DNA of 64,000 nt from Acidihalobacter ferrooxydans (lineage in GTDB: Bacteria > Pseudomonadota > Gammaproteobacteria > DSM-5130 > Acidihalobacteraceae), in contig NZ_CP019434.1 in NCBI RefSeq assembly GCF_001975725.1, positions 2,492,606 to 2,556,605 on the forward strand, given 5' to 3'. Shown here piece after piece: positions 4,493 to 60,554 of the stretch. The position numbers and the translations under genes are program-made. The notes below the pieces were generated by a model. The model was not told the DNA's origin and searched no databases. It was given only the letters and a program-made list of their open reading frames with translations. The first letter of the stretch is position 1; each line of letters begins with the position of its first letter.

Positions 4493-4644
4493 ACGCAACC
4501 AACAGCCAAAAACCAGACCCGCACTGACTCCGACGTGACAAGCCTCCGCACATCAGCGGTCTGTCGGATATGGAGAACCGTAGCGACGCGCCTGTGAATA
4601 GAGACGTACACGGGGGCTGGCCAGTCTTGCACTCATGCAACAGG

Positions 4645-4695
4645 ATCGTTAGCGTAATGAAATGGTCAAACCACTCAGATTCGTGCAGGATTGCA
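4645..4695 (+). repeat. 51-bp imperfect direct repeat, left copy
   Basis: Bases 4645-4695 match 5419-5469 in the same orientation at about 42 of 51 positions, including the uninterrupted block ACCACTCAGATTCG. The two copies bracket an AT-rich gene (4765-5367). This could be a duplicated insertion target or the arms of a recombination event, but no integrase is present. Confidence 0.75.
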
Positions 4696-4764
4696 AGACC
4701 TCTATTTTCATTTCAAGACCCCATTTTTCGCATTTTTCATTCTTATTGATCTTCTGGAAAAATA

Positions 4765-5367
4765 ATGGGAACACTACTCCGTTTAACCAAATGGGCGTGT
4801 CGAGCATGGCCAGTACTCGTTATTGGAATAATTGTTTGCGCTCATCTGCTGTTGCTCAATTATTTCTCACAATGGGATGATTTCATCAATAAAACAGCCG
4901 CCCTAGTTTCTCTGTTGGTAGGCGGACTAATAATTTTGTACTCTATTAATTCTAATATTGGCATCATAAAACAGAAATCCCTCATTTCAGAGCTGTCCAA
5001 CTACCTCAAAGAATTCCCGCTGATCAAAAGGCCGATTGCAATCGAGTTACAGGGTACAGCGATGACCATCTCAGCAATAAAGTCAAATATCAGTGTTGAC
5101 CGTAAGGCACAAAGTACGGACGAAAAAATTGAGTACCTTCAAGAGAGAATCAATGAGGTAAGCCGTGAACTTGAACAGGAATCTAAGGAACTAAATAAAA
5201 AAATTGACCATCTTACTAATAATATGAGCACACAAATCCAAGATGCCAAGACATCTTTACGAGGGCTTGAATCCAAAATGGATGAGGTTTATACAGGTGA
5301 TTTAAAAGTCCAACTGTTTGGCGTATTACTTATTATATATGGTGCGATAGCAGGGTATGCAGTCTAG
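4765..5367 (+). CDS. AT-rich membrane-anchored coiled-coil protein of unknown function
   Basis: A 200-residue protein that I do not recognise. Two hydrophobic segments lie near the N-terminus (about 15-33 and 44-62), followed by a charged region predicted to form a coiled coil (about 110-175, rich in E/K/L/I with heptad-like spacing, e.g. EYLQERINEVSRELEQESKELNKKIDHL). A last hydrophobic segment (about 182-199) reaches the C-terminus. The likely topology is an inner-membrane protein with a soluble coiled-coil loop. Its codons and base composition are strikingly AT-rich against neighbours on both sides, and it sits between two copies of a 51-bp direct repeat, which suggests horizontal acquisition. 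A role cannot be assigned; similar architectures occur in phage, toxin and septal proteins, but no diagnostic motif is seen. Confidence 0.7.
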   Translation: MGTLLRLTKWACRAWPVLVIGIIVCAHLLLLNYFSQWDDFINKTAALVSLLVGGLIILYSINSNIGIIKQKSLISELSNYLKEFPLIKRPIAIELQGTAMTISAIKSNISVDRKAQSTDEKIEYLQERINEVSRELEQESKELNKKIDHLTNNMSTQIQDAKTSLRGLESKMDEVYTGDLKVQLFGVLLIIYGAIAGYAV

Positions 5368-5418
5368 CAATACCCATAAATTCGAAGATCACATGGGGTC
5401 TCGCAATCAAGCAATTGA

Positions 5419-5469
5419 ATCGTTAGCTCAACGAAATGGCCTGACCACTCAGATTCGCGCAGGGTCGCA
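5419..5469 (+). repeat. 51-bp imperfect direct repeat, right copy
   Basis: Partner of 4645-4695, same orientation, about 82% identical by eye. It lies between the AT-rich gene and apaG. Base composition returns to the high-GC background shortly after this copy, consistent with it marking the right edge of an acquired segment. Confidence 0.75.
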
Positions 5470-5597
5470 TTATCCCATCGTCGCAATCAATTTTTCCCAA
5501 GCCCAACAGACCCCGTGGATCGGGAAAAAGCCCCCCTTCCATGCGCCGTTCGTTACGATTGCCCCTGTGCGTCAGGCTCCAAGGTATACTCACGCCT

Positions 5598-7496: not shown

Positions 7497-7652
7497 GCCC
7501 GGACACTTCACACCTACCGCCGATCATGTACCGCCAGGCTTGCGGGTCTCTGATGCCACAAGGGAATTTCCTCAGTCAGCCGTTATCGCCGATACGCCGC
7601 TTCTTCGGAGTGCCCTTGCGAAATCCATATCCGGCGCGACATCAGCATAAAA
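7497..7652 (+). repeat. Repeat C, degenerate copy C6
   Basis: About 155 bp resembling the full-length C copies at 10722, 13752 and 60191. The left edge CCGGACACTTCACACCTACCGCC matches their CCGAATGTTTCAC edge with several changes. The core CCTCAGTCAGCCGTTATCGCCGATACGCCGCT is nearly identical. The right terminal repeat is decayed. It fills most of the gap between apaH and dadA; nothing else is evident in that 310-bp stretch. Confidence 0.65.
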
Positions 7653-10552: not shown

Positions 10553-10718
10553 AGGAGCCTGTCAGACTTGGAAAGAATCGGCCGCGGCGATTGGATAATG
10601 GGTTCATTTCCCCGTTCTGTTTCGTCGAATAAAACCACTCTTGTCCTCAAAAAACCGCGAAGCCGGCTTCCATTCCCCGCCTGCCTCGGCGACGAGACTC
10701 CAAGTCTGGCAGGCTCGT
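10553..10718 (-). repeat. Repeat A, long form, copy A1
   Basis: A 166-bp imperfect palindrome in reverse orientation to the A4 reference copy. The left edge AGGAGCCTGTCAGACTTGGA pairs with the right edge TCCAAGTCTGGCAGGCTCGT. Internal arms typical of the family (GGATAATGGG, CATTCCCC) are present. Its right end is 3 bases from repeat C1. Confidence 0.85.
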
Positions 10719-10721
10719 AGT

Positions 10722-10880
10722 CCGAATGTTTCACCACTACCGCCAGGCTCCGGTCACTCGATTCAACGAGAAATATTGACTCAGTCGGCCGTCATCGCCG
10801 ATACGCCGCTCCTTTGGAAATCCCTTTGTTGGAATCCCCCGTCCGGCGCGATCTCAGCACACTCTCATGAAACATCCGGA
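10722..10880 (+). repeat. Repeat C, full-length copy C1
   Basis: A 159-bp element bounded by CCGAATGTTTCAC on the left and the inverted GAAACATCCGGA on the right. The core GTCGGCCGTCATCGCCGATA matches C2, C3 and C6. It directly follows repeat A1, an arrangement also seen at 60191-60554. The 350-bp gap between the DUF445 gene and the Sel1 gene is almost entirely these two repeats. Confidence 0.82.
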
Positions 10881-11653: not shown

Positions 11654-11750
11654 AGGGGCCTGTCGGACTTGGTAAGAATCGGCGCGGCGATGGGATAATG
11701 GACCACACCCCGCTCGCCTCGCTTCGATCCTCCAAGTCCGACAGGCTCCT
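11654..11750 (-). repeat. Repeat A, short form, copy A2
   Basis: A 97-bp version that keeps both terminal repeats (GGGGCCTGTCGGACTTGGTA and TCCAAGTCCGACAGGCTCCT) and the middle stem but lacks the central arm found in the 165-bp copies. It lies in the 306-bp gap between htpG and the Sel1 gene. Apart from this element I see nothing assignable in that gap. Confidence 0.85.
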
Positions 11751-13751: not shown

Positions 13752-13907
13752 ACCCGAATGTTTCACAACGACCGCCGATTTCGCGTATCTCTTTATTCCA
13801 CAAGAGATATTTCATCAGACGACCGTAATCATCGATATGCTGCACCTTCTGTAGTCCCTGATACCCATAGCCTGTGCGATATCAGCACTCGCTGTGAAAC
13901 ATCCGGA
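13752..13907 (+). repeat. Repeat C, full-length copy C2
   Basis: A 156-bp element with left edge ACCCGAATGTTTCACAAC and right edge GTGAAACATCCGGAT, an 11-12 bp terminal inverted repeat. It begins about 30 bp upstream of htpG, so it sits in the htpG promoter region. Confidence 0.85.
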
Positions 13908-21497: not shown

Positions 21498-22598
<1,101 letters not shown>

Positions 22599-35561: not shown

Positions 35562-35680
35562 CGGATGTTTCATAACCCGTGCCGATAACGCGCCGGATCG
35601 TGTTTTCACAAGGGACTACAGAAGAAGCGGCGCATCGATGTTGACAGCCGACTGAGGAAATCTCCCTTGTGGGATCAAGA
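35562..35680 (-). repeat. Repeat C, truncated copy C4
   Basis: The left edge GCGGATGTTTCATAACC is followed by GTGCCGATAACGCGCCGGAT and AGCGGCGCATCG, matching the reverse complement of C3. The copy stops near 35680, beyond which the sequence no longer matches. It begins at the stop codon of the Old Yellow Enzyme gene. Confidence 0.75.
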
Positions 35681-35882
35681 GACCGGCGAAATTGGTGGGA
35701 TTTTTCAAACTATCCAGGATAGCCACGCCGCCGGTTCCCTGCCCGCACACGGGCAGGGAACCGCTCACACAATTGGGCCAAATCGCGTATCCTGAATACA
35801 CCGCTGCCCCAGGGGAGCGCTTGACATAATGAACCCACACAATGGCACAGCACACTCATTGCCAGCCTGAAATCTCAAACCT

Positions 35883-36047
35883 AGGAGCCTGTCGGACTTG
35901 GAGGATCGAAGCGAGGCGAGTGGGGAATGGTGACCAGTTTCTCGCTCTTTTGAGGACAATAGTGGTTCTATTCGACGAAAAAGAGCGGGGAAATGGGTCC
36001 ATTATCCCACCGCCGCAGCCGATTCTTTCCAAGTCCGACAGGCTCCT
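35883..36047 (+). repeat. Repeat A, long form, copy A4 (reference copy)
   Basis: A 165-bp near-palindrome with perfect 20-bp ends, AGGAGCCTGTCGGACTTGGA and its inverse TCCAAGTCCGACAGGCTCCT. Inside, GTGGGGAATGG faces CCATTATCCCA, and TCGCTCTTTT faces AAAAAGAGCG, so a transcript could fold end to end with a loop around GGTTCTATTCGACG. The edges are flanked by CT and AG, making the outermost bases CTAG on both sides. No coding potential. Confidence 0.92.
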
Positions 36048-36089
36048 AGACATTCCATTAGACGAGGTAATGATTACGCAGTGTTGAAT

Positions 36090-36188: not shown

Positions 36189-36287
36189 ACCCGGATGTTT
36201 CACAACTCGTGCTGATAGCGCGCCGGATCGTGTTCCCACAAGGAAGCGGCGTATCGGTAATGACGACCGACTGATGGATTATCCGGG
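36189..36287 (-). repeat. Repeat C, short form, copy C5
   Basis: A 99-bp version with edges CCCGGATGTTTCACAA and GGATTATCCGGG and the inner blocks GCGCCGGATCGTG, AAGCGGCGTATCGG and ACGACCGACTGA. It ends 29 bp before the start of the GGDEF/EAL gene, so it lies in that gene's leader or promoter. Confidence 0.78.
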
Positions 36288-38862: not shown

Positions 38863-39031
38863 GGGAGGCCTGTCGGACTTGGAGGATCGAAGCGAGGCGC
38901 GTGGGGAATGGAGGCCAGTTTCTCGCCCTTTTGAGGACAATAGTGGTTCTATTCGACGGAAAAGCGCGGAATAATAGATCCATTATTCCATCGACGCAGT
39001 CGATTCTTTCCAAGCCCGACCGGCTCCCAGG
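38863..39031 (+). repeat. Repeat A, long form, copy A5
   Basis: A 169-bp copy with edges GGGAGGCCTGTCGGACTTGG and CCAAGCCCGACCGGCTCCCA. Its right end contributes an AGGA (39029-39032) positioned 8 bases before the GTG start of the HlyD-family gene, so the repeat seems to provide that gene's ribosome-binding site. Confidence 0.88.
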
Positions 39032-44375: not shown

Positions 44376-44399
44376 GGATGATCCGACAGGCTCCTGGCC
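44376..44399 (+). repeat. Repeat A, right-end fragment A9
   Basis: Only the right terminal part remains, ATCCGACAGGCTCCTGG, preceded by unrelated sequence. It lies in the convergent gap between the permease gene and folA. Confidence 0.6.
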
Positions 44400-48820: not shown

Positions 48821-48983
48821 AGGGGTCTGTCGGACTTGGAGGATCGTGGCGAGGCGAGTGGGGAATGGAGGCCAGTTTCACGCTCTTTTGAGGACGAGTG
48901 GTTCTATTCGACGAAAAAGAGCGGGGAAATGGGCCCATTATCCCATCGCCGCAGCCGATTCTTTCCAAGTCCGACAGGCTCCT
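48821..48983 (+). repeat. Repeat A, long form, copy A6
   Basis: A 163-bp copy with edges AGGGGTCTGTCGGACTTGGA and TCCAAGTCCGACAGGCTCCT and both inner stems of the family. It is nearly identical to A4 and A7 over most of its length, implying recent spread or gene conversion. Confidence 0.9.
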
Positions 48984-51163: not shown

Positions 51164-51325
51164 AGGAGCCTGTCGGACTTGGAGGATCGAAGCGAGGCGA
51201 GTGGGGAATGGAGACCAGTTTCTCGCTCTTTTGAGGACGAGTGGTTCTATTCGACGAAAAAGAGCGGGTTGTGGGCCCATTATCCCATCGCCGCTGCCGA
51301 TTCTTTCCAAGTCCGACAGGCTCCT
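51164..51325 (+). repeat. Repeat A, long form, copy A7
   Basis: A 162-bp copy with perfect 20-bp terminal repeats (AGGAGCCTGTCGGACTTGGA and its inverse). It starts 6 bp after the DUF255 stop codon, where its hairpin could act on the 3' end of that transcript. A partial second copy follows directly. Confidence 0.92.
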
Positions 51326-51326
51326 T

Positions 51327-51378
51327 GCAGCCTGTCGGGTCAGGAAGATCGTGGCGAGGCGACTGGACGATGGTGGCC
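51327..51378 (+). repeat. Repeat A, partial copy A7b in tandem with A7
   Basis: CAGCCTGTCGGGTCAGGAAGATCG and CGAGGCGACTGGACGATGG correspond to the left third of repeat A. The remainder is missing; it abuts the end of the MBL-fold gene. Confidence 0.75.
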
Positions 51379-51384
51379 AACCGC

Positions 51385-60190: not shown

Positions 60191-60349
60191 ACCCGAATGT
60201 TTCACAAATCCAAGTCGATCTCACTGCCCCTCGATTCCATAAAAATATTTCCTCAGTCGGTTGTCAGCACTGATACGCCGCTCATTCTGAGGCTCCTTGT
60301 GCAATCACTATCCGGCGCGACCGCAGCACAAACCTATGAAACATTCGGG
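60191..60349 (+). repeat. Repeat C, full-length copy C3
   Basis: A 159-bp copy with the clearest terminal inverted repeat: ACCCGAATGTTTCACAA on the left and TATGAAACATTCGGG on the right. It is separated by 2 bp from the composite repeat A8, the same A/C juxtaposition as at 10553-10880. Confidence 0.88.
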
Positions 60350-60351
60350 CC

Positions 60352-60554
60352 AGGAGCATATCGGACTTGGAAAGAATCGGCTGCGGCGATCCTCTAACAA
60401 GGCTGTTGTTGTCGCTCAGGCGAGTGCGGGAGAAGGATTGTCGGGCGAAAAAACGCAGTTTACAGCGGGTAAATGAGCACAAGAGCCCGATTTTGACGCG
60501 CTAGCGTGCCGCATGAGTAGACAACAACAGCCTGGCCAAGTCCGACAGGCTCCT
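60352..60554 (-). mobile_element. Composite repeat A8 with repeat B2 inside
   Basis: The left 40 bp (AGGAGCATATCGGACTTGGA through GCGGCGAT) and the right 20 bp (CCAAGTCCGACAGGCTCCT) are repeat A. Between them lies repeat B2 (60395-60534) in place of the normal A centre. It is the only nested pair seen and gives the relative age: B arrived after, or replaced part of, A. It lies downstream of the ubiI-like gene. Confidence 0.85.
60395..60534 (-). mobile_element. Repeat B, copy B2 (MITE-like), nested in A8
   Basis: A 140-bp element in inverse orientation to B1. Its left end is TAACAAGGCTGTTGTTGTC and its right end GACAACAACAGCCTGG; the middle has CTCAGGCGAGTGCGG, GGGTAAATGAGCACAAGAG and GTGCCGCATGAGTAG. 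The termini form a 16-bp inverted repeat. No protein is encoded. Confidence 0.87.

Follow-up and report, generated by a model that had tools for sequence, protein, structure and literature searches.

In ordinary MITEs, conservation is limited to the ends that the transposase recognizes, and the sequence between them drifts. The repeats described here, family A, come from a 64,000-nt stretch of the Acidihalobacter ferrooxydans genome (hereafter, the window) and reverse this pattern: an interior hairpin is kept in 70 sampled genera, and the ends vary. Several described systems share parts of their anatomy. MITEPsy1 of Pseudomonas syringae is 100 bp long and non-coding, with 18-bp terminal inverted repeats (TIRs) and a 4-bp duplication of CTAG or YTAA, and its transposition has been demonstrated (PMC3189936). 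It resembles family A as a short non-coding MITE with TIRs and 4-bp CTAG-type borders; its TIR, however, is GGAAGGTCTGAAAAAGCC, it is attributed to the IS5-type ISPsy2, and a class-wide core was not reported for it (PMC3189936). The IS1182 CTAG subgroup (ISAzo2; Pseudomonas plasmids pNY8709-IMP, p2017-45-137A, and pKF715A) has TIRs like those of family A, GAGCCTGTCGGACTT / CAGCCTGTCGGACTT, and CTAG on both sides, but its members are ~1.55–1.65 kb long, encode a transposase, and, in those examined, have no A core. The IS1182 member ISPse1 has 16-bp inverted repeats and a 4-bp repeat (PMC3281130).

ERIC (127 bp) and YPAL/RU-2 (~168 bp) of enterobacteria are, like A, small intergenic hairpin repeats found across genera (PMC2229807, PMC2759123). 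YPAL is nearly as long as A and was suspected from its length to be the same element, but its published ends do not fit; unlike A, it has no terminal inverted repeat and is associated with 3–26-bp duplications. ERIC differs in having TA at its ends, and both ERIC and YPAL are set apart from A on their published end features. REPIN/REP-RAYT repeats are high-copy extragenic palindromes as well (PMC2817692, PMC8266576), from which A differs in its lack of RAYT linkage, its CTAG borders, and its DDE-type TIRs. Overall, we strongly favor the explanation that family A is an IS1182-ended MITE with a class-wide core that exchanges its ends.

Anatomy and Distribution of Family A

All the A copies listed in an earlier note on this DNA are present where it had placed them (Table 1), and several details of their description could be refined. 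The element proper is ~161 bp of non-coding sequence, with no ORF, between CTAG tetranucleotides, somewhat less than the "about 165 bp" given for the long copies, and the supposed 20-bp terminal repeat consists of a 17-bp TIR, GAGCCTGTCGGACTTGG, and part of the CTAG border. The proposed size classes hold for the long A1, A4, A5, A6, and A7 and for the short A2 and A3, which do lack the middle, but A8 is an interrupted copy and not a size variant. A4, A6, and A7, called near identical, are similar to a lesser degree, with A6 and A7 at ~93% to A4; the fragment noted at 44376 is a solo end, and that at 51328–51383 is a piece of A adjoining A7.

Table 1. Family A copies and associated features in the window
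Feature	Position	Strand	Evidence
A4, full-length MITE, 161 bp	35885..36045	+ (core-forward)	sequence, genome copies aligned, core match 113 bits
CTAG border, left of A4	35881..35884	.	sequence and CTAG list
CTAG border, right of A4	36046..36049	.	sequence and CTAG list
Conserved hairpin core of A4 (model R1)	35903..36027	+	covariance model match
A1, long copy, reverse orientation	10555..10716	-	core match 45.6 bits
A2, short copy, center deleted	11656..11748	-	end search and core model
A3, short copy, center deleted	21587..21681	-	end search and core model
A5, long copy	38865..39026	+	core match 82.6 bits
A6, long copy, CTAG borders	48823..48981	+	core match 97.4 bits
A7, long copy, CTAG left / CTTG right	51166..51323	+	core model; unoccupied site in congener G001
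A fragment adjoining A7, 4-bp border in common with A7	51328..51383	+	sequence
A8, A copy with another palindromic element inserted (~60392-60533)	60354..60552	.	sequence
Solo A end	44381..44398	-	sequence
Very degenerate A copy in two parts ~860 bp apart, 200-aa ORF 4765-5367 in between	4557..5513	.	sequence

Alignment of 30 A copies gives the consensus CTAG-GAGCCTGTCGGACTTGG...CCAAGTCCGACAGGCTC-CTAG, and the likeness among them ends at CTAG. The left border is CTAG in 21/30 copies and CTGG or CCAG in the remainder, the right border is CTAG in 20/30, and 17/30 have CTAG on both sides, the others being mostly one substitution away. These borders are not due to chance, since CTAG is avoided ~tenfold in the window (22 seen, whereas base composition predicts ~215), and these 22 sites include several A borders; repeat borders make up a good part of the 22. 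A single CTAG is sometimes common to an A copy and another A copy or an element of a second family, B, which is expected if all of them insert at CTAG and each insertion creates further CTAGs. A4 folds strongly, both as RNA (−101.9 kcal/mol, z −11.7) and as DNA (−55 kcal/mol, z −11.2).

The family is not confined to the window. The end sequence GCCTGTCGGACTTGG, with up to three mismatches, occurs there 19 times against 2.5 expected, a count reached in none of 100 shuffles, and genome-wide the 18-bp A end gives 125+137 matches against 3+5 for a reversed control. From searches and stretches of the genome (G000, a single 3.45-Mb contig), we count well over 100 copies, mostly intergenic, with at least 41 near-full copies in the same orientation at 91–100% identity (best 40 of 180 candidates scored). 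There are matches in other genomes as well; the whole of A4 matches one plasmid (Pseudomonas MPC6) in a plasmid search and nothing among phage sequences.

Two copies in the window are interrupted. The insert in the degenerate copy at 4557–5513 holds an AT-rich ORF with a putative membrane or coiled-coil product, flanked by ~72-bp direct repeats that are 79% identical, and is possibly captured cargo. The element inside A8 (~140 bp) has the ends AGGCTGTTGTTGTC / GACAACAACAGCCT and a nested-stem layout like that of family A.

IS1182-Type Transposase as the Probable Partner

The MITE-like nature suspected in the earlier note was borne out by the tests that it had called for, among them an empty site in a relative and a transposase with matching ends. 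The genes around A7 are syntenic in a congener (G001), and the interval between them is 297 nt in G000 and 84 nt in G001, without the element; the intergenic bases of G001 at the site are too diverged for a 4-bp duplication to be read. As to the ends, a plasmid search with the bare A end returned full-length elements of 1.54–1.60 kb with CTAG followed by CAGCCTGTCGGACT at both ends, hosted by Pseudomonas, Mesorhizobium, Aromatoleum (ISAzo2), and Marinobacter. The TIR and CTAG of family A are matched by six insertion sequence loci (L102, L103, L105, L107, L108, and L109), and identical or nearly identical ends delimit three loci in genomes (L124 in G309, L126 in G140, and L131 in G095). Calling IS1182 transposases with NF033551 at a cut-off of 270 bits, we obtained 334–384 bits for L102, L103, L105, L109, L124, L126, and L131; the frame of L107 is broken and scores 220 bits, below the cut-off. 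For the L108 insertion, the pTTS12 empty site is collinear with the joined flanks, one tetranucleotide being kept, and the pTTS12 relative (88% identity over the query) reads TCAG there; for the IS1182 copy in pNY8709, no relative providing an empty site at base level was found.

The collinear flanks also bear on the idea that the hairpin is explained by an element landing in inverted-repeat targets or taking their place, a mode put forward for IS1272, an IS1182-family member that replaces stem–loops upon insertion (PMC5678879). We regard this as very improbable: A has CTAG on either side, the flanks stay collinear at the IS1182 empty site, and what folds into the hairpin is the element and not its target. 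Judging from the shared ends and borders, an IS1182-type transposase very probably moved family A, and a MITE with IS1182-type ends is the likely description of the element. Under such a mechanism, the 17-bp TIR would be bound by a DDE transposase of IS1182 type supplied in trans, which would excise the element and insert it at CTAG, duplicating 4 bp.

The copies in G000 look orphaned at present, as no IS1182 transposase over the cut-off is left in this complete genome; a single weak match at 4e-13 is probably an IS5 gene that also gave a weak match to PF13751. They would be orphans after the loss of their source or would have been seeded by horizontally arriving IS1182 elements. Among the resident transposons, the DDE_Tnp_1 elements (IS4-, IS5-, and IS1380-type) were rejected as a source, their ends not matching A; neither these nor the Y1_Tnp elements of G000 have A ends as their own TIRs, and the A ends near two of these loci, L039 and L043, belong to neighboring A copies. 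The likeness to REPINs drawn in the earlier note did not survive these searches. A REPIN-type repeat mobilized by a RAYT (a tyrosine HUH transposase) would account for long hairpin repeats in more than 100 copies and for solo ends, and the genome has seven Y1_Tnp-family genes; yet none of these seven Y1/RAYT-type loci has an A end within ~1.5 kb, and the CTAG borders and the TIR match full-length DDE insertion sequences, so that we give this origin almost no credence. Co-occurrence within genomes does not support the IS1182 link: in a search of 369 genomes, 9 of the 85 bearing the core have an IS1182 transposase over the cut-off, with ~6 expected by chance. The loss of insertion sequence copies from draft assemblies, together with transposase turnover, may explain this poor agreement.

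A Conserved, Covarying Hairpin Core

The main point, which the earlier note missed since seeing it needed other genomes, is that the interior of the element is a conserved, covarying hairpin found with different TIRs across lineages. Of 369 gammaproteobacterial genomes, 67 contain the motif CTAG[ACG]AGCCTGTCGGACTT[AG]G, one mismatch being allowed, and the control gave none among the matches listed; the paired ends of the elements bearing it are typically ~158–159 bp apart. In an alignment of 22 elements from many genomes and one plasmid, the ~124-nt interior forms one long imperfect hairpin of 62 pairs, with 95.1% of cells pairing. Changes on both sides are seen at 41 of the 62 pairs, and cells with such changes number 146, against 36±5 in shuffled alignments and 11–46 in slid registers. 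The positions of the asymmetric internal loops (GAGG, ACGA, CGA, and AG) are invariant in this alignment.

Covariation of this kind may have a cause other than selection. Long inverted repeats self-correct, and with template switching or gene conversion between the arms, each mutation would be copied to the opposite arm and the stems would covary in any long-lived palindromic MITE; that A copies lie in both orientations with no fixed gene link agrees with such a process. Self-correction should, however, erase asymmetry, and yet the asymmetric unpaired loops are among the most conserved parts of the core. Nor does it sit well with the forward strand having more G-U than A-C cells: for the 52 pairs that both strands are predicted to form, the ratio is 40:14, a count in which relatedness is ignored; the ratio of 330:59 in a larger, model-fitted set is inflated by pairs picked because they were G-U. 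We therefore consider self-correction a rather unlikely explanation. The G-U excess suggests that the relevant strand is the forward one, whether RNA or single-stranded DNA, and selection on this folded strand is the reading best supported by the data.

A covariance model built from the core only, with the TIRs excluded, matches 85 of the 369 gammaproteobacterial genomes (about a quarter) and 70 of 271 genera, and could name hundreds of unannotated repeats. The same model finds no core inside the IS1182 loci examined, save where an A copy adjoins one, which argues against family A being a plain internal-deletion derivative of an IS1182 element. Such a derivation would explain why TIR and target are identical to those of IS1182 elements but not why the core is coupled to several other TIR types, and we think it improbable. 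Rfam gave no match, neither for the window at the gathering threshold nor for eight loci at E≤1. No prior literature on it was found in an open-access set that is short of most subscription journals and ISfinder, and the exact TIR string turned up there only in a Geobacter primer. Element variants of ~230 bp (L145, L151, and L089; in G355 and G260) have an extra hairpin in one arm and are common to two species of one genus.

Exchange of Ends and a Possible Function

The core carries at least six TIR types across genomes, sometimes several per genome, and in the core matches with other TIRs the ends are matched internally within each element. GAGGCTGTCCGAGAATAG, close to the ends of the IS1182 element L119, CTAGGAGGCTGTCCGAGAA, is found in G056, G325, and the Pseudomonas MPC6 plasmid; the others are GGGTCTGTTGACAATTTAA (G360), GGGTCTGTTTACAATT (G073 and G300), GGCAACGTCCCTAAAG and GGGCGTSTCCCTAAAGG (G300 and G169), GAGACTGTGAAAGTATTC (G158), and GGGACTGTTGAATGTTG (G327). 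G056, G158, and G300 have several types each, and in G056 and G158 several types also occur within well-supported clades confined to one genome. The core tree, built on few columns and with many forks left open, requires the TIR type to have changed at least 13 times. As the same core occurs with different TIR types, the conserved unit is the core and not the ends. Most borders of core elements are YTAR-like, and the ends have thus probably been exchanged among related (IS5/IS1182-type) transposases; some of the apparent swaps may instead reflect slow divergence, with L264 of G056 looking intermediate. Only the two IS1182 end types are tied to a transposase, and among plasmids the search for partners of the other types gave nothing firm, with one weak match under an IS5 transposase (H37).

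The core element of the conjugative Pseudomonas sp. plasmid MPC6 (L070; NZ_CP034782.1, 2949–3115), with its different IS1182-type TIR, adjoins a second IS1182-like end, the two having one CTAG in common. This plasmid is a possible route for the horizontal spread of the core element.

The 30 copies lying between crudely called genes are spread over the flanking-gene orientations as 8, 8, 8, and 6; this lack of preference argues against a fixed terminator or 3′ UTR role and for a role in the element itself rather than in its neighbors. The most likely putative role is thus an aid to the element, through transposition efficiency or host tolerance. The core would then be the inherited unit, kept by selection on its forward strand in the folded state, either as RNA or as DNA that is single-stranded while replicating or transposing, and would switch transposon ends, following whichever YTAR-targeting transposase is resident. 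That selection acts on the fold for the element's own propagation is possible, though we hold it with some doubt. In a broader reading, a serious but still tentative one, the ~124-nt core functions as a structured nucleic acid (RNA or single-stranded DNA) and is what is truly inherited, swapping TIRs across successive IS1182- and IS5-like transposases that share the YTAR target; we are equally tentative about its part as a "parasite of parasites" persisting across Gammaproteobacteria. Should selection on the core prove real, a MITE can replicate in its own right, its non-coding core being functional and moving from one transposase to another, and a question of long standing, which role, if any, the hairpins of bacterial MITEs play, becomes directly testable.

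Family B, the second set of repeats in the window (35562–35665, 36192–36284, 7552–7651, 10775–10826, 13809–13860, and 60233–60332), has the ends CCCGGATGTTTCA. These resemble the TIR, CTAG followed by CCCGGATATTTCA, of the IS1380-family elements L042 and L043 in the genome (NF033539, 308 bits), and family B is probably an IS1380-derived MITE, also at CTAG and sometimes adjoining A.
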